A DNA stretch of 64,000 bases, taken from assembly GCF_000526515.1 (NCBI RefSeq), contig NZ_JAGF01000001.1, positions 3,038,001 through 3,102,000 on the forward strand, written 5' to 3'. The notes beneath the pieces were generated by a model. That model saw only the letters and a program-made list of their open reading frames with translations, had not been told where the DNA came from and made no database searches. Made by a program: the position numbers and the translations under genes. Positions 8,190 through 50,650 of the stretch are shown one piece after another. The stretch is from Cellulomonas sp. KRMCY2. GTDB lineage: Bacteria > Actinomycetota > Actinomycetes > Actinomycetales > Cellulomonadaceae. The number at the start of each line of letters is the position of its first letter. Within the stretch, counting starts at the first letter, position 1.

Positions 8190-9518
8190 ATGACTCGACG
8201 CAGGCACGGCCGGCTGGTCGCCGGCCTCCTGGTGCTCCCGCTCGCGCTTGCCGCGTGCAGCGGTGGCACCGACGACACCGACGGCGGTGACGAGGGCACT
8301 GGCGGTGAGACCGCCGCGACGGAGGGCGGCACCCTCAAGCTCTGGCACTACGAGAGCGCTGACGGTGCGATGGGCATCGCCTGGGACGAGGCGATCAAGG
8401 TCTTCGAGGAGGAGACGGGAGCGACGGTCGAGTTCGAGCGGAAGGCGTTCGAGCAGATCCAGCAGACCGCAGGCATGGTCCTGAGCTCCGACGAGGGCCC
8501 GGACATCATGGAGTACAACAAGGGCAACGCGACAGCGGGCCTGCTGTCCTCCCAGGGCCTGCTGACGGATCTCACCGACGTCGCCGAGGAGCGTGGGTGG
8601 ACCGACATGCTGCCGGAGAGCATCCAGACCACCGCCCGGTACGAGAACGGCGTGATGGGTTCCGGGCCCTGGTTCGGTGTCCCCAACTACGGCGAGTTCG
8701 TCACCGTCTACTACAACAAGGCGATGTTCGAGGAGTACGGCGTCGAGGTGCCGACGACTCTCACGGAGATGGAGGACGTCATGGACACCTTCGTCGCCGC
8801 CGGCGTCGTCCCGCTCGGCATGGCCGGAGCGGAGTACCCCGCGGGCCAGCTGTTCTACGAGCTCGCGCTGAGCAAGGCCGACCGCGACTTCGTCTCGGCG
8901 TACCAGACGTACACCGACGACGTGGACTTCCAGGCCGACCCGCTCAAGTACGGCGCCGAGACCTTCGACGCCTGGGTCAAGGCCGGCTACGTCGCGCAGG
9001 ACTCGGCGAGCATCAAGGCCGAGGACATGGGTGTGGCGTTCATCAACGGCACGACACCGATGATCGTCTCCGGGTCGTGGTGGTACGGCCGGTTCGTCTC
9101 GGAGATCACGGGCTTCGACTGGGGGATCTTCAACTTCCCCGGTAACACCCTCAACGCAGGGTCGAGCGGCAACATCTGGGTCGTGCCGGAGAACTCGGCG
9201 AACAAGGAGCTCGCCTACGAGTTCATCGACATCACGATGCGCCCGGAGATCCAGGCCCTGCTGGGCAACAACGGTGGCCTCCCGCTCAACGCCGACCCGG
9301 CAGACCTCACCGACCCGAAGAGCCAGGAGCTCATCACGGCCTTCAACGAGGTGCTCGACAACGACGGGCTCGCGTTCTACCCGGACTGGCCGGTTCCCGG
9401 CTACTACGACGTGCTGGTCGCGGCCTTCCAGTCCCTGATCAACCAGAGCAAGACCCCGGAAGAGGTGCTGACCGAGATCGGCACCGCCTACGACGACGGC
9501 GTCGCGAACATCGGCTGA
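8190..9518 (+). CDS. ABC transporter sugar-binding lipoprotein
   Basis: The 442-residue protein has a lipoprotein signal peptide: RRR start, hydrophobic core LVAGLLVLPLALA and lipobox LAAC with Cys at about residue 22, then a Gly/Asp/Thr-rich linker. The mature part is a family 1 extracellular solute-binding protein (GTLKLWHY at its start, SGSWWYGRFVSEITGFDWGIF later). It should be anchored outside the membrane and deliver an oligosaccharide to the two permeases that follow. The start is the ATG at 8190, 10 bases after the LacI stop and preceded by GAGGAGAAG. An earlier start in the same frame would overlap the regulator gene and spoil the signal peptide. Confidence 0.93.
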   Translation: MTRRRHGRLVAGLLVLPLALAACSGGTDDTDGGDEGTGGETAATEGGTLKLWHYESADGAMGIAWDEAIKVFEEETGATVEFERKAFEQIQQTAGMVLSSDEGPDIMEYNKGNATAGLLSSQGLLTDLTDVAEERGWTDMLPESIQTTARYENGVMGSGPWFGVPNYGEFVTVYYNKAMFEEYGVEVPTTLTEMEDVMDTFVAAGVVPLGMAGAEYPAGQLFYELALSKADRDFVSAYQTYTDDVDFQADPLKYGAETFDAWVKAGYVAQDSASIKAEDMGVAFINGTTPMIVSGSWWYGRFVSEITGFDWGIFNFPGNTLNAGSSGNIWVVPENSANKELAYEFIDITMRPEIQALLGNNGGLPLNADPADLTDPKSQELITAFNEVLDNDGLAFYPDWPVPGYYDVLVAAFQSLINQSKTPEEVLTEIGTAYDDGVANIG

Positions 9519-9523
9519 CACCG

Positions 9524-9562
9524 CCGGCGGATCCGGCCGCAGCCTGCGGCCGGATCCGCCGG
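9524..9562 (+). terminator. 18-bp perfect stem-loop between binding protein and permeases
   Basis: The arms 9524-9541 and 9545-9562 pair perfectly over 18 bp around the three-base loop GCC. There is no U-run, so it is not a standard intrinsic terminator. Strong stems at this place in sugar ABC operons are known to stabilise the binding-protein message or reduce read-through, giving more binding protein than permease; that role is inferred here. Confidence 0.75.
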
Positions 9563-9594
9563 ACGGCCGGTGACCACCTGCGACAGGGAGACCC

Positions 9595-10554
9595 ATGACC
9601 ACCGTGACCCATCCGCCCGCCAGGGCGACGACGACACCGACCAGGCGCCGCGCGCGGCCCCGGTCCGGGCAGGGGACCTACTGGCTGTACCTCGTCCCGG
9701 GCGCCGTGCTGTTCATCGGCGTGATCGTCGTGCCGTTCTTCATGAACCTGTACTACTCGATGACCCGCTGGCCCGGGATCGGGGAGCCCCGGTGGATCGG
9801 CTTCGACAACTACACGCGGCTCTTCGCCGACGACACGTTCTGGCTCTCCTTCCGCAACTCCGTGGCGATGATCGTCGCGATGGTGGTCGTACCGACGCTC
9901 GTCGGTCTGCTGCTGGCCGCGGTGCTCTTCGACTATCTGGGCAAGCGGTTCGACGGGCGGGTGGCCAGTGGCCTGCGCGCGACGTACTACCTGCCGCAGA
10001 TCCTGCCGGTGGCCGTCGCAGGCATCCTGTGGGGCTGGGTCCTCAACCCGCAGACCGGGGCTCTGAACGTGATCCTGAGGAACCTCGGGCTCGAGTCGTG
10101 GGCCCTGAACTGGCTCGGTGACACCGGCACGGCGCTGCCCACCGTGATGCTGGTGATGATCTGGGTGCAGGTCGGCTATCCCGTCGTCATCTTCATGGCG
10201 GCCCTGCAGCGCGTCGACCCCGAGCTCTACGAGGCCGCCGAGCTCGACGGTGCGGGCTGGTTCCGACGGTTCCGGGCGATCACGCTGCCGCAGATCAAGC
10301 CGGAGACCTTCGTCGTGACGCTCACCTGCACGATCGCCGCTCTCAAGGTGTTCGGCCCGATCTACGTGCTGACCAAGGGCGGTCCGGAGAACAGCACCAA
10401 CGTGCCGTCGTACTTCGCGTACCAGAACTTCTTCCCGAAGTCGCAGGTCGGCTACGGCGCAGCGATCGCGATGGTGCTGACCGTCATCGTGATCATCGTC
10501 TCGATCATCTTCATGCGGGTCCAGGCAGCCAGCGAGCGCAAGGAGGGCATCTGA
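9595..10554 (+). CDS. Sugar ABC transporter permease, MalF type
   Basis: This 319-residue protein is an integral membrane permease with about six transmembrane segments; the first is about residues 25-47 (TYWLYLVPGAVLFIGVIVV). The EAA loop that contacts the ATPase is visible at about residues 213-234 (YEAAELDGAGWFRRFRAITL). It pairs with the MalG-type permease that overlaps it. The ATG at 9595 follows a CAGGGAGACCC ribosome-binding region. No ATPase gene is encoded nearby, so the pair probably uses a shared ATPase such as an MsiK homolog elsewhere in the genome. Confidence 0.93.
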   Translation: MTTVTHPPARATTTPTRRRARPRSGQGTYWLYLVPGAVLFIGVIVVPFFMNLYYSMTRWPGIGEPRWIGFDNYTRLFADDTFWLSFRNSVAMIVAMVVVPTLVGLLLAAVLFDYLGKRFDGRVASGLRATYYLPQILPVAVAGILWGWVLNPQTGALNVILRNLGLESWALNWLGDTGTALPTVMLVMIWVQVGYPVVIFMAALQRVDPELYEAAELDGAGWFRRFRAITLPQIKPETFVVTLTCTIAALKVFGPIYVLTKGGPENSTNVPSYFAYQNFFPKSQVGYGAAIAMVLTVIVIIVSIIFMRVQAASERKEGI

Positions 10555-43434: not shown

Positions 43435-43563
43435 GCGGGGTCGGTGCACCGGGTCGGTCTCCCCGTGCCCCGCGGCTCTCGCTCGCCGGGATGTCGGGTC
43501 GCTGAGCGTTGCGCTGGTTGTCCACAGGTCGTCGATCCGGCCGTGCGGCGTGGTTCGCGTTGC

Positions 43564-43569
43564 TAGGGT
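43564..43569 (+). promoter_or_regulatory. Candidate -10 box for leaderless transcript of the DUF6318 gene
   Basis: TAGGGT ends six bases before the ATG at 43576 and no Shine-Dalgarno is present, which fits a leaderless message. It would give the accessory block its own promoter, separate from the cysteine desulfurase. The 43435-43563 stretch shows no other element. Confidence 0.4.
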
Positions 43570-43575
43570 CGCCGC

Positions 43576-44175
43576 ATGGCGCGGGGGGCGATTTCGGTAG
43601 GTCTGTCCATGGTCGGTGTGCTGCTGCTCGGTGGCTGCACCGGGCCGGCGGAGGCGGGGCCGACGCCGAGCGTGGTGGCGCAGGAGACGGGGACGCCGGA
43701 GCCGGGCCCGACGGCGACGCCGGGTGTCGCCCCGGTGACGGCGCCGGTGCGGCCGGCGGAGATGGAGCGGTCGGACGAGGTCGGCGCTGCGGCGGCGGCG
43801 GAGTACTTCCTGCGGCTGTTCCCCTACGTGATGCAGTCGGGTGATCTCGAAGAGTGGGCGCTGATCAGCACCACCGACTGTGAGTTCTGTTCGACGGTGC
43901 GCGGATGGGTTGAGGACTTCGCGGCGGCGGATGAGGACTACGCAGGTGGTGACGTCACGGTGGCGGGCGTGCACGTGTTTCCGCAGGACGCGGTGCTGGG
44001 TGGGTACACCGTCCAGCTGGAGTTCACGCAGGCTGATGCCCGAGTCGCGGGCCCCGATGGCGTCGTCACTCGGTCGGTCGAGGCCTATGGCGAGTATGCA
44101 TTCGTCGACGTGATCAGGTCCCAGACCGGTTGGGTGCTCGTTGAGCTCGTGACCAGGGAAGAGCCCTTGGCATGA
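43576..44175 (+). CDS. DUF6318-like lipoprotein
   Basis: The 199-residue protein has a lipoprotein signal peptide with lipobox LLGGC (Cys near residue 21), then a Pro/Thr/Ala-rich spacer of about 40 residues and a compact domain with AAAAEYFLRLFPYVMQSGDLEEW and a Cys pair in TTDCEFCSTV. This matches the DUF6318 family of actinobacterial lipoproteins, whose function is unknown. The protein should sit outside the membrane. Its stop overlaps the start of the PKD-domain gene (ATGA), so the two are likely made together. Confidence 0.85.
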   Translation: MARGAISVGLSMVGVLLLGGCTGPAEAGPTPSVVAQETGTPEPGPTATPGVAPVTAPVRPAEMERSDEVGAAAAAEYFLRLFPYVMQSGDLEEWALISTTDCEFCSTVRGWVEDFAAADEDYAGGDVTVAGVHVFPQDAVLGGYTVQLEFTQADARVAGPDGVVTRSVEAYGEYAFVDVIRSQTGWVLVELVTREEPLA

Positions 44176-45092
44176 ACGCGATCTCCGCGAGGGTGTGCAT
44201 CTGCGTCGCCGTGAGCCTGTTCCTTGGTGCAGGGAGCGCAAGCGCCACGTCGGTCGACGTCCGTCGCGACGAGCCGGCGACGTCGACGGAAGTCGACGAG
44301 CCGAGCATCCGGGGTGCGGGTGACGGCGATGGGATGACGTTCGCCGGAGCGGAGACGACCGAGACGGACCCGTCGGTGACCGATGTGGCCACGTCGCCAA
44401 CGATCGTCCCGACCTTCGTCGAGCGCCGGATTCCGGTGGTTGTGTGCGGTACCGAGTCGGACCTGGCCGCCTCCGGGGCGCCGTGTGTCGACGGAGCGGA
44501 GACGTTCGCTCGGGCGCGCGTCTGCGCGGATGGCTCCGAGGCGCTGCCGCCCTTGTGGCGTCGTGACGTCGATCCGGCCACCGGGCTGGGAGTGGGCCCG
44601 TGGGTTCGGGTCGACGAGGGGTACTGCCCGGAGGATGACGCCGCCGTCGTCCTGACGGTCGAGGAGTTCCGTCGTCTGCCGCTGGTCGCGTCGGTCCCGA
44701 CGTTCCAGCCTGCTGGTGGTCGGGCGTTGGTCAACAAGGATCTGATCGTGTTCACCGACCCGGCCCCGCAGGAGCTTTCGACCGTGATCCTCGGCACGCC
44801 GGTCCTGGTCCGCGCGACGCCGGTCGGGTACGCGTGGGACTTCGGTGACGGGTCGGCGCCGCTGGTCACGACCGACCCTGGTCGGCCCTACCCGGACTAC
44901 TCGGTGGCCCACCTGTATGGGTCGCTCGGCACGTTCGAGGTGCGGCTGGTCACGACCTGGCAGGGGGTCTACCAGGTCGCCGGTGCCGGTCCGTGGCTCG
45001 CCGTGGCCGGGACCGCGCAGACGACGTCGGCGCCGTATGGGGTGGGCATCGAGGAGGCCCGCACCTACCTGGTCCAGGACTCCCAGGGCTAG
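44172..45092 (+). CDS. Secreted PKD-domain protein
   Basis: The 306-residue protein has a signal peptide (about residues 1-26, ending near GSASA), a Thr/Glu/Asp-rich spacer, a cysteine-containing region (VVVCGTESD, GAPCVDGAE, ARVCADG, EGYCPEDD) and a C-terminal PKD-like domain with YAWDFGDGSAP and HLYGSLGTFEVRLVTTW. PKD domains mediate binding to sugars or proteins outside the cell. No sortase motif or catalytic domain is present. It overlaps the DUF6318 lipoprotein gene and converges with the anti-sigma gene, so the pair likely forms one surface unit of unknown role. Confidence 0.85.
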   Translation: MNAISARVCICVAVSLFLGAGSASATSVDVRRDEPATSTEVDEPSIRGAGDGDGMTFAGAETTETDPSVTDVATSPTIVPTFVERRIPVVVCGTESDLAASGAPCVDGAETFARARVCADGSEALPPLWRRDVDPATGLGVGPWVRVDEGYCPEDDAAVVLTVEEFRRLPLVASVPTFQPAGGRALVNKDLIVFTDPAPQELSTVILGTPVLVRATPVGYAWDFGDGSAPLVTTDPGRPYPDYSVAHLYGSLGTFEVRLVTTWQGVYQVAGAGPWLAVAGTAQTTSAPYGVGIEEARTYLVQDSQG

Positions 45093-45144
45093 TGCGGGCT
45101 CTCGAGAAGGGGTCGTTCCGGTCGCGGCGTGCGGGCGAGCGCTG

Positions 45145-45969
45145 CTACTCCGGCCGTGTGGGTTCGGCGTCGTTGATCACCGTGCCGTCCTTCAAGGTGA
45201 CGGTGTACGTGAGGTCAGGAGCGGGGCCGCCGTTGCCTTCGAGTTCGTCGCCGAACGCGAGGCCGGGCCACCAGGCGAGGTAGCGCCCGTCACCGACGGT
45301 GGCGTACACGGTCTGGCCGTCCGCGGTCCCGATGGTCACCGCAGTGACGTCGTCACCGACGTCACCCAGGGTGAAGGAGACGGTCGGGCGCTGGCGCAGG
45401 TCGAAGGTTCCGGGACCGTGCTGGAAGATCGGGCCCTGCGTGAACTGGCCGTCGACCGGCACGGCGCCCTGGCCGCCGGCCGCAGCGATGTCGAGCTGAT
45501 CGGCGTGGTCGCCGCCGGCAGGCAGGTGAGCCAGGCAGGTCGCGGCCATGGGCTCGTCGCTCGTGTAGAGCAGCCCCACCCAGTCGCCGCGGCGTTCGAC
45601 GAGCGCCAACGCCGGTGAGTCCATCTCCAGTCCGGCATCACGGCAGGCGGCGTCGGCGACGGCGCTGTCGGCAGCGCTGATCGCCTCCGGCTCCGGAGTC
45701 CAGGAGGCGTAGGCGGCGTCGGTGACCGTGAGCTCGGGGATCACCCAGGTGACGGCCACCGCTGCGACGGCGACGGGGATCGCCACCCAGCGCAGGCGTC
45801 GGGCTCGGCCGGTGGGCGCCGGGGCAGGGCGCGGGCCCGGGCTGCCGGGTTCGCCGGCGAGGATCTGGTGCAGCCTCGCGGCGGCGTGTCGTCGGGCGGT
45901 GTCGTCGGGCTCGACGTGGGGTGCTGCGTCGAGTGCGCGCAGGGCGGTCAGGTCGGTGTCGTTGTTCAT
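45145..45969 (-). CDS. Anti-sigma-factor-like membrane protein
   Basis: The 274-residue protein has a cytosolic N-terminus with LTALRALDAAPHVEPDDTARR, one transmembrane helix at about residues 57-76 (WVAIPVAVAAVAVTWVI), and a secreted domain of about 195 residues with two cysteines. It follows the ECF sigma gene directly, and the N-terminus resembles that of actinobacterial sigma-linked membrane proteins (CU044_5270-like). I infer that it controls the sigma factor. ATG at 45969 with GGAG eight bases upstream is preferred; a GTG at 45978 would overlap the sigma stop. It lacks a visible HxxxCxxC zinc motif. Confidence 0.75.
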   Translation of the reverse strand: MNNDTDLTALRALDAAPHVEPDDTARRHAAARLHQILAGEPGSPGPRPAPAPTGRARRLRWVAIPVAVAAVAVTWVIPELTVTDAAYASWTPEPEAISAADSAVADAACRDAGLEMDSPALALVERRGDWVGLLYTSDEPMAATCLAHLPAGGDHADQLDIAAAGGQGAVPVDGQFTQGPIFQHGPGTFDLRQRPTVSFTLGDVGDDVTAVTIGTADGQTVYATVGDGRYLAWWPGLAFGDELEGNGGPAPDLTYTVTLKDGTVINDAEPTRPE

Positions 45970-45974
45970 GTCGA

Positions 45975-46520
45975 TCACTCCGTTGCTGGGATCTCGGTGA
46001 GCTGGACCGAGGAGGTGGTGGTCTCGACCTGTCGGCGCAGCGACAGGCGCGCGCGATGGAGCCTGATCCGGTAGGCGGTCGATGAGATGCCGAGCACCCG
46101 GCCGGCCTGTGGCGAGGGCAGGTCCTCCCAGATCGCCAGGGACAGGACCTCCTGGTCTTCGGGGCGCAGTCGCCGCCAGGCTGCTGCGAGGTCGACGCGC
46201 CGGGAGATCAGGTCGTCCTCGGCGTCGGTGGACGAACTGGTCGTGGCGGCGAGCCGCACCTCGAGGGCGCCGCGCCGGACCTGCCCGCGCTGGTCGTTGA
46301 GCAGGCAGTTCCGGGCAGTGCCGAACAGCCACGCCCGCGCGTCATCGGCCCTCTCGGGGACGTCGTCGAACCGTCGCCAGGTGATCAGGAATGCCTCGTG
46401 GACGATGTCCTCGGCGCGCTCCGGGCCGGCCCTCCGCTGCACGAACCGCAGCACGTCGGTGTAGGCCCGGTCGTACAGGTCCGCGAACCGTTGCTCGCGG
46501 GTCTGCTCTGGTGAGTGCAT
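45975..46520 (-). CDS. ECF-type RNA polymerase sigma factor
   Basis: The 181-residue protein has sigma region 2 (RFADLYDRAYTDVLRFVQRR, then AEDIVHEAFLITWRRFDDVP) and region 4 (WRRLRPEDQEVLSLAIWEDL, with the helix-turn-helix in SPQAGRVLGISSTAYRIRLH). Length and layout are those of an ECF factor. The ATG at 46520 gives a short N-terminus before region 2; an upstream extension in the same frame is not needed. It precedes the putative anti-sigma gene and is divergent from the GNAT-AAA+ gene, so one or both of these may be among its targets. Confidence 0.9.
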   Translation of the reverse strand: MHSPEQTREQRFADLYDRAYTDVLRFVQRRAGPERAEDIVHEAFLITWRRFDDVPERADDARAWLFGTARNCLLNDQRGQVRRGALEVRLAATTSSSTDAEDDLISRRVDLAAAWRRLRPEDQEVLSLAIWEDLPSPQAGRVLGISSTAYRIRLHRARLSLRRQVETTTSSVQLTEIPATE

Positions 46521-46726
46521 ACCTGTACTTGTCCGGATCCCGTCATCTGTTTCGCGGCCGGGCCAAGGCGGCACGTCCATCACAGTGAACCGTCTCGTGC
46601 GCGTCCTCGGCACGCATCCATCGACCGAGCCCCTGCGCGGCGGACGCGGCAGTAACGTGATCGTCGACGCAGGCCGGGATCCGGCGGACGCCGACGTGAC
46701 AACGACTCGGACGAGTGGGGACGCAC

Positions 46727-48013
46727 ATGCCGGGATGGCGACTCAGGGAGTTCCACGCCGATGACCTCGACGGCATCCTGCGGCTGTGGGAGGTCGCCAC
46801 GCGCGACAATGCCGAGCCCGTGTACGGGCTCGCCGAGGTCCTCGCGTCCTGCCAGAAGGACCACGCGCTGGTGGCCGTGCACGGCGAGGAGATCGTCGGT
46901 GCCGTCGTCGGCCGCGCGGCGCACGCACAGGGCTGGATCGTCTTCCTCGCCACCGCCGAGCAGTGGCGCGACCGCGGCATCGGGACGGCCCTGCTGGCCG
47001 CGCTGGAGAAGCGGATGGAGCCGCACGGCCTGACCAAGCTCTCCGCGCTGCTGCCCGAGTCCGAGACCCGGGTCGACGACTTCCTGGGGCAGGGCTTCGA
47101 GGTCAAGAGCCGCCTGCGCTACTTCGAGCGCCGGCTCCCGGTGCAGCGCGAAGAGCTCGGTGCGCTCAGCGAGCTCGGCGGACGCATCCTGCCGAGGGGC
47201 CTGTGGGACGCCGTCGGCGGGATGCAGCGTGAGAAGGACCTGCTCGAACGCAGGCTCGTGCTTCCGCTGGCCAAGCCGGACCTCGCCGAGCAGTACGGGA
47301 TCGTCCCGCCGCGTGCGGTCATGCTCTTCGGCCCTCCGGGGACCGGCAAGACGACGTTCGCCAAGGCGATCGCGTCGCGGCTCGAGTGGTCGTTCGTCGA
47401 GGTGTTCCCGTCACGGCTCGCCGCCGATCCGCGGGGGCTTGCCGGCGCGCTGCGGGAGACCTTCGACAAGATCGCCGACCTCGAGCACGCGGTCGTCTTC
47501 ATCGACGAGGTCGAGGAGATCGCCGCCCGGCGCAAGGGCGAACCGCCGTCGCCCATGCAGGGCGTGACCAACGAGCTGCTCAAGATCATCCCGGTGTTCC
47601 GCGAGCAGCCCGACCGGCTCCTGGTGTGTGCGACCAACTTCATCCGGATCCTCGACTCCGCGTTCCTGCGCCACGGCCGGTTCGACTACGTCATCCCGAT
47701 CGGCCTGCCCGACGACGCCGCGCGTCGCGCCATCTGGGACCGCTACATCCCGCCGTCGGTGTCCGGGAGCGTCGACCTCGACCTGCTCGTCCAGAACAGC
47801 GAGGGCTTCTCGCCGGCGGACATCGAGTACGCCGCTCGCAAGGCCTCCCAGCAGGCGCTCGAGACCTCGCTCGACACCGACGACGAGTCCGCCCGTGCGA
47901 TCGGACCGTCCACGACGGACTACCTCGATGCGATCGGTGGGACCAAGGCGACCGTCTCGGTCGAGGTCGCTGCGGAGTTCCTCGACGACATCGCGTCGAT
48001 CGCGCGCCTCTGA
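46727..48013 (+). CDS. GNAT acetyltransferase fused to a Cdc48/FtsH-type AAA+ ATPase
   Basis: The 428-residue protein joins two domains. Residues about 4-135 form a GNAT fold with the acetyl-CoA motif EQWRDRGIGTALLAALEKRM. From about residue 158 a classical AAA+ module follows: the VGG motif (LWDAVGGMQREKDLL), Walker A GPPGTGKT at about 202-209, Walker B VVFIDEVEEI, sensor 1 LLVCATNF, arginine-finger box HGRFDYVIPIGLPD and sensor 2 GFSPADIEYAARKA. There is no protease or membrane segment. ATG at 46727 follows GTGGGGACGCAC; a GTG at 46715 is possible. Its partner and role are unknown; it precedes the GH5 gene by 24 bases. Confidence 0.9.
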   Translation: MPGWRLREFHADDLDGILRLWEVATRDNAEPVYGLAEVLASCQKDHALVAVHGEEIVGAVVGRAAHAQGWIVFLATAEQWRDRGIGTALLAALEKRMEPHGLTKLSALLPESETRVDDFLGQGFEVKSRLRYFERRLPVQREELGALSELGGRILPRGLWDAVGGMQREKDLLERRLVLPLAKPDLAEQYGIVPPRAVMLFGPPGTGKTTFAKAIASRLEWSFVEVFPSRLAADPRGLAGALRETFDKIADLEHAVVFIDEVEEIAARRKGEPPSPMQGVTNELLKIIPVFREQPDRLLVCATNFIRILDSAFLRHGRFDYVIPIGLPDDAARRAIWDRYIPPSVSGSVDLDLLVQNSEGFSPADIEYAARKASQQALETSLDTDDESARAIGPSTTDYLDAIGGTKATVSVEVAAEFLDDIASIARL

Positions 48014-48037
48014 GCCCGACCTCTGAAGGAGACGACG

Positions 48038-49582
48038 ATGTCTGCACGCCGCCGCGCCGTTGTCGTGGTGCTCGTCGCACTGTTCGCGTTCGGGGCCGGT
48101 CTCGGCGTCTACGCCCTGCTGAGCCCGGCCGACGGCCCGGGCCCCGAGTTCGTGACCCGCGACGGCGACCAGTTCATGCTCGACGGCGAGCCGTTCTACG
48201 CCGCCGGATCGAACAACTACCGGCCGATGTTCCTCGACCCGACAGTCGTCGACCAGATCATGGCTGCGGTCGCGGACAACGACCACCGGGTGCTGCGCGC
48301 CTGGGCGTTCAACGACATCGGCGACCCCGCGGACCCGACCACGTCGATCGACCCGCAGAACACCACGACCTACTTCCACTCCTGGGATCCCGCGGCCGAG
48401 GCCCCCGCCTTCAACGACGGCGAGACCGGCCTGGAGCAGCTCGACTACATGGTGGCCTCGGCCAAGGAGCACGGCGTCCGGCTCGTCCTGCCCTTCGTGA
48501 ACAACTGGGGCCCCTACGGCGGGATGGACCAGTACGTCAGGTGGGCCGGCGCCGAGTTCCACTCCGACTTCTACACCGACGCGACGATCCGCCAGTGGTA
48601 CAAGGACTGGGTCGAGCACCTGCTCAACCGGGTCAACACGATCACCGGCGTCGCGTACAAGGACGAGCCGACGATCATGGCCTGGGAGCTCGCGAACGAG
48701 CCGCGCTGCGTCGCCTCGGGGAGCTACGAGGCGGGCCCCGACTGCACGACCGACACGCTGACCGCGTGGGCCACCGAGATGGCCGCCTTCGTGAAGTCCG
48801 TCGACGGCAACCACCTGGTCGGCCTCGGCGACGAGGGCTTCTGGTGCGAGCCGGACGGTGAGCACTGGACCGACGACTGCAGCCAGGGCGTCGACGCGCG
48901 CGCCATCGCGCAGCTCGAGGACATCGACATGGTCGGCCTGCACCTGTACCCGGACCACTGGGACACGACGGTCGACTGGTCCGAGCAGTACGTCATCGAG
49001 CACGTCGCGCTGGCCGCCGACGTGGACAAGCCGGTCTTCATCGGCGAGTACGGCTGGCGCGGCGACGCCCCCCGCAGCATCGTCTTCCACCAGTGGATGA
49101 GCGCGTACTTCGAGCAGGGCGGCGACGTCGCGCTCTACTGGCTGATGCAGCCGAGGGACCAGTTCACGACCCCGCCGGACTCCGACGGGTTCACCGCCTA
49201 CTGCCCGTCGGCGGTCTGCACCCAGGTGGGCCAGTGGACACGTGCCGTGGCCGACGGCGACCGCGACCAGCCACCCGTGGCCGAGGTCGACGTCCTGGTC
49301 GCGACCGAAGGAGTCAGAGGCCTGGCCGACCTGCTGGCCAACGACGTGTCCCTATTCTCCGAGCTCGACCCGACGAGTGTGGACCTCGACCCGGAGGCTT
49401 CGGGTGTGCAGGACGAGGTGACGTCGTCCGACGGCGTGGCTCGGGTGGCCGATGGCGTGCTGACGTACGAACCGGCGGAGGGGTTCGTCGGTCGCAGCGA
49501 GGTCTCGTACACGGTGGCCGATGTCGACGGGCTGGTCAGTGAGCCGGTTGACGTGACTGTGCGGGTGAACGCTGCGGAGTAG
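48038..49582 (+). CDS. Secreted GH5 mannanase-like glycoside hydrolase with Ig-like domain
   Basis: The 514-residue protein has an N-terminal signal anchor or signal peptide (residues 7-28), a GH5-type barrel and a C-terminal Ig/cadherin-like domain (about 412-514, with LLANDVSLFSELDPTSVDLD and GRSEVSYTVADVDG). The acid/base is Glu221 in AWELANEPR and the nucleophile Glu337 in FIGEYGW. The barrel start FYAAGSNNYRP and LRAWAFNDIG resemble subfamily GH5_7 beta-mannanases. It probably acts outside the cell on mannan or a related polymer. The ATG follows CTGAAGGAGACGACG. It is likely co-transcribed with the GNAT-AAA+ gene. Confidence 0.88.
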   Translation: MSARRRAVVVVLVALFAFGAGLGVYALLSPADGPGPEFVTRDGDQFMLDGEPFYAAGSNNYRPMFLDPTVVDQIMAAVADNDHRVLRAWAFNDIGDPADPTTSIDPQNTTTYFHSWDPAAEAPAFNDGETGLEQLDYMVASAKEHGVRLVLPFVNNWGPYGGMDQYVRWAGAEFHSDFYTDATIRQWYKDWVEHLLNRVNTITGVAYKDEPTIMAWELANEPRCVASGSYEAGPDCTTDTLTAWATEMAAFVKSVDGNHLVGLGDEGFWCEPDGEHWTDDCSQGVDARAIAQLEDIDMVGLHLYPDHWDTTVDWSEQYVIEHVALAADVDKPVFIGEYGWRGDAPRSIVFHQWMSAYFEQGGDVALYWLMQPRDQFTTPPDSDGFTAYCPSAVCTQVGQWTRAVADGDRDQPPVAEVDVLVATEGVRGLADLLANDVSLFSELDPTSVDLDPEASGVQDEVTSSDGVARVADGVLTYEPAEGFVGRSEVSYTVADVDGLVSEPVDVTVRVNAAE

Positions 49583-49894
49583 GGGTGGGTGCTGGTGGTG
49601 TCGGGTGGGACGCGGGCGGGCAACCCCACGTTCGTCAGCACCCTCGAGTCTACGGCCCGTGCGGCACGGGATGCAGGGCCCTCATCAGGCGTACGCCGGA
49701 TCGCCCGCCGGCCGACTCGGCCGCGAAACCGTCGTGCGGCGGTGCGGGGTGTTCGAGGGGGCGGAGCTTGTGGCTCGCGTGGCCGGTGGCGTCTGGGGTG
49801 CCAATCAGGGACCCCAAGCCTCACTCCAGTCCCATGATCCGCGCGGTGTGGCGCCCGTCTGCCACGCGAGTGCGGTGCCGGGCACCGCCGCCCG
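49583..49894. other. Intergenic stretch without a recognisable gene
   Basis: Between the GH5 stop and the stop of the convergent membrane-protein gene lie 312 bases with no supported gene. Several frames are open by GC bias, but none shows family-like composition or a ribosome-binding site. A short GCCCGTGCGGCACGGG-type fold near 49655-49672 might serve as terminator. I see no repeats or att-like duplications here. Confidence 0.5.
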
Positions 49895-50464
49895 TCAGCC
49901 GAGAGTGCAGCTCCCCGCGCCGAGTGCGCGGAGGCGGTTGTCGAGATGGTCGACGAGCGCGCCGGCCCCGTCGAGCGCCTCGAGGAACTCGCTGAGGAGC
50001 GGTTCGGCAAGGAAGGCCTGCGGATCCATCTGCACAACGATGTCGACGACGTGCAGGTACGCCGCGTCAACCGTGTCGGCATCGCTGAACAGCTGCTTCA
50101 CTGCGGCGGCATCCCGAGCAGGCAACTCCAGGCTCCGCAGCTGTCCGACGAGCTCTCGCTGAGCGTCCGCCGTGTCTTCAAGGGCGCGTGCCACTACCTC
50201 GGTGTCCACCACTGTGGGATCGCCGAGTGCCCAGTCCATGGCGTCGATGGCCTCCCTGTACCGGTGGGTGAGGTCGCCTCGGGTGATGTCGCACTGTGCG
50301 GAGGCTTCCCGCGCCCAGTCGTCGAGGGTGCGTGGGGCGGGCCGGTCCTGGAGGGCGAGCACGGTCGTGACGACGCCGGCGACCAGTGCCACGAGGGTCC
50401 CTGCCACGGTCAGGGTCGTCCGCATGACGCCCCACCCCGTCTTCGGTTGGTCGGTTGTCGTCAT
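49895..50464 (-). CDS. Membrane-anchored hypothetical protein
   Basis: The 189-residue protein has one membrane helix near the N-terminus (about residues 17-38, LTVAGTLVALVAGVVTTVLAL), so most of the chain is probably outside the cell. The rest is helical, with DDWAREASAQCDITRGDLTHR, many acidic residues and two cysteines (in QCD and near the C-terminal GSCTLG) that could form a disulfide. No family is recognised. It is transcribed opposite to the genes on both sides and marks the right border of the accessory block before mnmA. The ATG at 50464 follows no strong Shine-Dalgarno. Confidence 0.75.
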   Translation of the reverse strand: MTTTDQPKTGWGVMRTTLTVAGTLVALVAGVVTTVLALQDRPAPRTLDDWAREASAQCDITRGDLTHRYREAIDAMDWALGDPTVVDTEVVARALEDTADAQRELVGQLRSLELPARDAAAVKQLFSDADTVDAAYLHVVDIVVQMDPQAFLAEPLLSEFLEALDGAGALVDHLDNRLRALGAGSCTLG

Positions 50465-50638
50465 GTCGAACCCCCTGGGTAGGCACCTGCTGCGAGGCCA
50501 GCGCTACCCGACAATTCTGACACCGGGACGGCGTCCGTGACCGGCGAATCCGCTCCTTGGGTCGCGCGGCAGGCGGGCTGACGGGCCGGGCGCCCACGGT
50601 CCCGCAACCCACCCGTCACCCGTCGAGCGACCGCCACG

Positions 50639-50644
50639 TACCCT
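50639..50644 (+). promoter_or_regulatory. Candidate -10 box for leaderless mnmA
   Basis: TACCCT ends six bases before the mnmA ATG and there is no Shine-Dalgarno. This is the expected spacing for a leaderless actinobacterial transcript. The -35 region is not conserved, which is common in such promoters. Confidence 0.45.
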
Positions 50645-50650
50645 TGCCCC

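Follow-up and report, generated by a model that had tools for sequence, protein, structure and literature searches.

The window, the whole 64,000-nucleotide stretch of Cellulomonas sp. KRMCY2 DNA that we analyzed, contains an open reading frame (ORF) in which a GNAT acetyltransferase domain is joined to an AAA ATPase module. The features of this ORF and of the genes on either side of it are as follows.

45975..46613, minus strand: sigma-70-type (ECF-like) factor with regions 2 and 4 (Pfam)
46727..48013, plus strand: GNAT-AAA fusion protein of 428 amino acids (ATG at 46727, stop at 48013; alternative GTG at 46715)
46727..47146, plus strand: GNAT domain, residues 1-140 (Pfam, structural model, and closest solved sequence relative, YpeA, 2pdo, E 2.1e-7)
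46967..46984, plus strand: acetyl-CoA (motif A) loop R81-x-x-G84-x-G86, RDRGIG
47189..48010, plus strand: AAA ATPase module and C-terminal helices, residues 155-428
47330..47356, plus strand: Walker A motif GPPGTGKTT, residues 202-210
47402..47452, plus strand: pore-loop-1 segment VFPSRLAADPRGLAGAL, residues 226-242, whose pore-loop position is not aromatic
47492..47515, plus strand: Walker B motif VVFIDEVE, residues 256-263
47630..47692, plus strand: second region of homology, residues 302-322, with sensor-1 N304 and arginine fingers R315 and R318
48038..49582, plus strand: GH5-type (Cellulase) protein with a Big_9 domain, starting 24 bp downstream of the fusion gene

Judged from the sequence, the ATG at 46727 is more likely to be the start codon than the GTG at 46715. 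The closest relatives (L010 and L011) open with the same M-x-x-W, and W4 is present in 88 of 120 aligned members of the family. Pfam places Acetyltransf_1 (PF00583) at residues 30-107 (E 1.6e-10; 41.7 bits against a cutoff of 20.7), AAA (PF00004) at residues 198-326 (E 2.8e-24), and AAA_lid_3 at residues 348-386, the last at 26.5 bits, slightly below its cutoff of 27.2. The ATPase half has the marks of the classic AAA clade: PF00004, Walker A and B motifs, and a second region of homology with two arginines. An AlphaFold2 model of the whole chain as a monomer (77 alignment rows; mean pLDDT, 94.6; pTM, 0.84) consists of a GNAT-like alpha/beta domain at residues 5-121, a linker helix at residues 141-149, and then the AAA core and C-terminal helices. 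A protease domain was not found in the chain among the best 25 of 34 Pfam matches. An HbYX-type C terminus is a mark of protease-coupled AAA proteins; the GNAT-AAA chain ends in SIARL and lacks an HbYX-like C terminus. The in-frame fusion described in an earlier note on this DNA is therefore upheld by the single ORF, by the Pfam matches to both domains, and by recurrence in relatives. Because the fusion recurs across Actinomycetota, a chance fusion or a frameshift artifact can be ruled out.

The same note had placed the gene in an accessory block beside a sigma/anti-sigma pair, with no protease partner nearby. The sigma half of the pair is borne out by Pfam; the anti-sigma half is a putative assignment, as that neighbor has no informative Pfam match. 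The sigma factor shows no sign of belonging to the GNAT-AAA system. The GH5-type gene is possibly cotranscribed with GNAT-AAA in this genome and is not a repeated neighbor in relatives. Two putative exported proteins (DUF6318; PKD) are also encoded in the window, and, in agreement with the note, there is no protease among the seven window neighbors that were scanned. The gap between the cysteine desulfurase gene and mnmA measures 7220 bp in the window (43435-50650). The two genes share a contig in 17 of 19 genomes of the genus. Ten of these have a gap of 26-436 bp, and the other 7, the host of the window among them, have one of 1.8-7.2 kb. The variable length of this gap marks a site of variable cargo and, with it, an accessory location for the GNAT-AAA gene. 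In G001, the sole other same-genus carrier found, GNAT-AAA is on contig C12 and the flanking genes are on contig C14.

Of 59 relatives searched, 6 encode a full-length GNAT-AAA protein. By group, the count is 2 of 19 in the same genus (the host included), 0 of 18 in other genera of the family, and 4 of 22 in the rest of the order. Two broader draws of 396 genomes each, with a few genomes in common, contained the in-frame fusion in 63 genomes for the order (G302 having just a C-terminal fragment) and in 29 for the phylum. A scan of named genomes gave 80 loci among the matches listed, comprising 66 fused loci, 5 deltaproteobacterial AAA-only loci, 8 archaeal Cdc48- or PAN-type loci, and 1 degenerate Streptomyces copy. 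The 66 fused loci among these matches encode 64 distinct proteins, and their record names read as Actinomycetota. One of the fused sequences, from a metagenome-assembled genome (MAG) labeled Bifidobacterium breve (L074), groups on the tree with a genome of another family and may be misbinned. Plasmids also carry the family (23 of 72,556 records), with 3 of the 23 proteins named “bifunctional GNAT family N-acetyltransferase/ATP-binding protein” by NCBI. These results identify GNAT-AAA as a conserved accessory actinobacterial family.

A viral origin is disfavored, as 50,697 phage records contained no match at E 1e-25 and the IMG/VR matches listed (at least eight, at 23-32% identity) are confined to the AAA region. 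GNAT and AAA as separate adjacent genes, an arrangement that the earlier note had said would count against a true fusion, were not seen among the loci examined; the AAA part does occur with a different N-domain at the five deltaproteobacterial loci. Three Rhodococcus plasmids are annotated with a GNAT protein next to a hypothetical protein, which in the one inspected reflects an apparent difference in gene start. In the degenerate Streptomyces copy (L113:9920-11659), the broken start of a GNAT-AAA gene runs into sequence that by eye resembles a universal stress protein. Elsewhere, an incomplete second copy (G339:C17:30693-33037; query 93-270, 67% identity) adjoins a full-length gene.

The gene neighborhoods of the family vary, and most members do not sit in a tight operon. 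A same-strand neighbor within 60 bp lies upstream at 6 of 63 loci and downstream at 10 of 63, with five deltaproteobacterial loci included, ORFs called by a GC-frame rule, and overlapping ORF picks counted as close. The earlier note had proposed listing the neighborhoods of fusion homologs; when this was done by clustering the ORFs of 71 named loci from the matches listed, the commonest cluster besides the family itself was an ABC-transporter-like ORF at 13 of 71 loci, and no other neighbor family exceeded that count. With no widely recurrent gene in this clustering, we rejected an operon or protease partner common to the family. Six plasmid neighborhoods, compared by annotation, all differ from one another. 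In three of them a protease lies no more than 8 kb away, no two alike; examples are an M4 metallopeptidase (Kitasatospora plasmid) and a short P1-peptidase ORF (Arthrobacter plasmid). We did not count these as a partner because the kinds differ from case to case. Given that the neighborhoods vary and no family recurs widely, GNAT-AAA likely acts without a dedicated encoded partner.

Several individual neighborhoods have features of their own. On a Tsukamurella plasmid (L181), the family member is preceded, 5-8 kb upstream, by genes for two Clp proteolytic subunits and trigger factor, and on Arthrobacter plasmid pAD51 (L179), isocitrate lyase and malate synthase genes are directly upstream. An SPFH/Band_7 gene is immediately upstream in one Streptomyces group (L077, at 9018-9878; L075; L079), and HflC/HflK-like genes are found near the AAA relative in deltaproteobacterial L107. 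These last two associations occur in too few lineages to support a conclusion. DUF5994 genes adjoin some Streptomyces copies.

To describe conservation, we used 121 fused members, a nonrandom sample consisting of the retrieved loci with blastp scores of at least 200 bits after removal of duplicates (L078 and L079 duplicate L077). Eleven ATPase positions are identical in all 121: six in Walker A (G202, P203, P204, G205, G207, and K208), D260 and E261 of Walker B, sensor residue N304, and arginine fingers R315 and R318. The complete set of ATPase motifs that the earlier note had read in the window protein is thus invariant in the family. The AAA half is also the better conserved of the two, with a mean pairwise identity of 0.62 versus 0.44 for GNAT in the group that keeps the CoA motif.

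The central pore loop is different. An aromatic-x-G pore loop was found in none of 12 rows from the family and its sister group, versus 25 of 25 comparator AAA domains, of which 23 were read in one alignment and 2 pairwise. The 23 were archaeal Cdc48-type D1 and D2 domains, one PAN-type, one ARC-type, and one FtsH-like domain, five IetA proteins, and three other actinobacterial single-AAA proteins; the Cdc48, PAN, ARC, and FtsH-like labels were assigned by eye, and the IetA rows alone were identified with a profile. The two pairwise comparators are aromatic as well, with MFVG in the FtsH-like protein of the same genome (L001) and KYVG in L003. Our aromatic pattern also allowed His, yet each comparator displayed has F, W, or Y. 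Aromatic residues anywhere in residues 230-242 occur in 4 of the 121 fused members, Streptomyces-type copies with AAEYGLA in a different register. The loop itself is well conserved in the family as PSRL..(D/E)..GLA, and it could grip a client in some other way.

According to the sections of PMC5762779 that deal with pore loops, Cdc48/p97, Vps4, the Clp translocases, and NSF share a conserved aromatic-hydrophobic dipeptide, and when it is mutated in Pex1 and Pex6 together, unfolding is blocked while basal ATPase activity remains. The same sections state that threading motors use aromatic pore loops and that NSF-type remodelers have them but can act through motion of the N-domain (PMC5762779). 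By this yardstick, the GNAT-AAA ATPase should hydrolyze ATP without threading protein. The earlier note had suggested that the protein might unfold a target; because the aromatic residue is missing from both the family and its sister rows, “unfoldase” is an unlikely label.

The nearest AAA-only relatives among the matches listed are the five deltaproteobacterial proteins (L104 to L108; 38-40% identity), which have in common with the family both PSxL and a nonaromatic pore loop. They differ at the N terminus, where no GNAT model matches and a stretch of about 35 amino acids corresponds to the last positions of DUF4032 (E 7.9e-6 to 8.2e-4, with the Pfam cutoff exceeded in two of the five). Since the loop is also nonaromatic in these relatives without GNAT, loss of the aromatic residue probably preceded the GNAT fusion or was ancestral to both branches. 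In a small AAA tree, GNAT-AAA forms one clade (local support, 1.0) apart from IetA, other single-AAA proteins, and Cdc48; seven rows that missed the P-loop pattern are not on this tree (three deltaproteobacterial, two IetA, the FtsH-like protein of the host, and L003).

In the GNAT half, the CoA loop of the window protein, RDRGIG, is intact and canonical. A strict R/Q-x-x-G-x-G/A pattern finds the loop in 99 of 121 fused members, and admitting His or Thr variants raises the count to 102; by column, R/Q81 is found in 100 of 118, G84 in 104 of 121, and G/A86 in 109 of 120. Retention in 102 of 121 members suggests that the motif is usually under constraint. V49, A50, G58, W70, E94, and G123 are conserved family-wide. 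In the remaining 19 members, the motif is degenerate. These include a deep clade of eight (one of them a Rubrobacter MAG) and several Micrococcales, Propionibacteriaceae, Brevibacterium, and Tsukamurella copies. Relatives at 61-67% identity are among them (L012, L013, L059, L061, L062, L063, and L065, the last being the Tsukamurella member on the tree).

We mapped the state of the motif onto a tree of the AAA region from 117 fused rows, a quick search with long-branch warnings that omits the irregular or incomplete rows L051, L103, L140, and L145. At least six changes are required, or nine under the strict pattern, and strongly supported branches alone force four. The motif-degenerate members keep their ATPase residues intact and retain R7, D13, V49, A50, G58, W70, E94, and G123 (16-19 of 18-19 each). 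This pattern fits a GNAT domain that would catalyze or bind CoA in most of the family and, in some members, serve for docking. A second GNAT resembling that of the fusion was not found in the rest of the host genome at E 0.001. The claim of the earlier note that the protein could acetylate is supported by motif (RDRGIG) for the window protein; the loss of acetyl-CoA residues in close relatives, which the note had named as evidence against its reading, is observed in a minority of them.

Among characterized proteins, Cdc48/p97 (VCP-like) is the closest to the ATPase half. The two have in common the AAA core, a VGG-type N-linker, Walker A and B motifs, two arginine fingers, and a lid, and Cdc48/p97 provides both the best PDB sequence match (5vc7, E 7.6e-66) and the top fold matches. 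They differ in that GNAT-AAA has one AAA domain rather than two, a GNAT N-domain, and a nonaromatic pore loop. Of the description “Cdc48/FtsH-like” in the earlier note, the FtsH part is not supported, as the FtsH_fam match scores 91 bits against a cutoff of 600 and the chain has no room for a protease domain. The GNAT half is of the YpeA type, matching PRK03624 (E 3.8e-15; 55.9 bits, below the cutoff of 124) and the YpeA structures 2pdo, 4qus, and 4qvt. Those PDB chains are 144-158 amino acids long and consist of GNAT alone, whereas here the domain is fused to an ATPase. In the part of PMC6199490 that we consulted, YpeA is named in strain tables.

The architecture, which the earlier note had called unusual, is widespread in Actinomycetota and already recorded by name in databases. 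For example, the NCBI entry WP_007297117.1 (“bifunctional GNAT family N-acetyltransferase/ATP-binding protein”) belongs to the same family and is 48% identical over its full length; the name is purely descriptive, and the records examined assign it no function. We found no description of the family in open-licence PMC papers, judged on titles and the starts of abstracts, which is weak evidence of absence. Within the sections of PMC11254643 on bacterial lysine acetyltransferase types I-V, none of the arrangements combines GNAT and AAA ATPase domains; among the classes given there are GNATs that carry an effector-binding domain (for cAMP, NADP, or amino acids) at the N terminus.

We propose, at about even confidence, that GNAT-AAA is a ring ATPase that uses GNAT as its N-domain and handles a client at the GNAT face. 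The protein would assemble into a ring, probably a hexamer, with the GNAT domains on the N face; both the ring and this placement rest on homology because the model is of a monomer. ATP binding and hydrolysis would move or order the GNAT domains, and a client protein would be acetylated, or a complex rearranged, at the N face in an NSF- or activase-like manner without pore threading. The family would not be an exact copy of the NSF mechanism, because NSF has an aromatic pore loop. In lineages without the CoA motif, the GNAT fold would probably be retained solely as a docking domain. The system is probably self-contained. More tentatively, the family may be part of a nonthreading AAA clade in which the aromatic loop was lost before the present N-domains were acquired, with interchangeable N-domains (GNAT in Actinomycetota and the DUF4032 tail in Deltaproteobacteria). 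In the GNAT branch of such a clade, the ATP cycle might gate acetylation of the client, coupling energy charge and acetyl-CoA in one ring.

Alternatively, the AAA module might be a regulatory oligomer that switches the GNAT by its ATP or ADP state, with no mechanical remodeling of a client. This possibility, to which we give roughly one chance in four, is consistent with the CoA motif being intact in 102 of 121 members, with a pore loop that is not of the threading type, and with the precedent for regulation of GNATs by a fused ligand-binding domain in the sections of PMC11254643 cited above. A module serving purely to regulate catalysis would be odd, however, because AAA is the better conserved half and stays intact where the GNAT motif is lost. 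The opposite view, in which the GNAT is a degenerate passenger, noncatalytic in every member, and the protein is simply an AAA ATPase, could explain why GNAT is the less conserved half and why its motif is degenerate in 19 members through at least six changes. We regard this as improbable, since the motif columns are kept in most members, six further GNAT residues are conserved family-wide, and the window protein has the canonical loop.

A threading unfoldase or remodelase, in which the GNAT marks or binds a protein and the AAA ring pulls it through the pore, is unlikely in our estimation. It would agree with the Cdc48/p97 sequence and fold neighbors, with the intact ATPase residues tested, and with the proteases lying no more than 8 kb away on three of the six plasmids compared. 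The missing aromatic residue, the SIARL terminus, and the lack of a protease among the seven scanned window neighbors argue against it. Still less probable, and the least favored of the explanations considered, is a defensive relative of IetA, from the IetAS anti-phage system. IetA, which works with the protease partner IetS, is also an AAA ATPase; it is the best PADLOC model for GNAT-AAA (E 5.2e-28), and the GNAT-AAA genes are accessory and present on 23 plasmid records. That match, however, is limited to the AAA region (profile positions 110-303 of 374), and the IteA NCBIfam model NF042959 gives 89.9 bits against a cutoff of 510. Moreover, the pore loop is aromatic in each of the five IetA proteins aligned, those placed on the AAA tree (three) form a separate branch, no neighbor family (by clustering rather than by the IetS name) is found at more than 13 of 71 loci, and the phage records contained no match at E 1e-25.

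If the proposed N-face ring ATPase is correct, a widespread actinobacterial protein would unite acetyl-CoA and ATP in one ring machine of a nonstandard kind, without threading through the pore. Acetylation would then be regulated, or proteins remodeled at the N face of an AAA ring, by a mechanism of a new kind. Natural pairs of members with intact and degenerate CoA motifs are available, and the AAA part also occurs with another N-domain, making the family cleanly testable.
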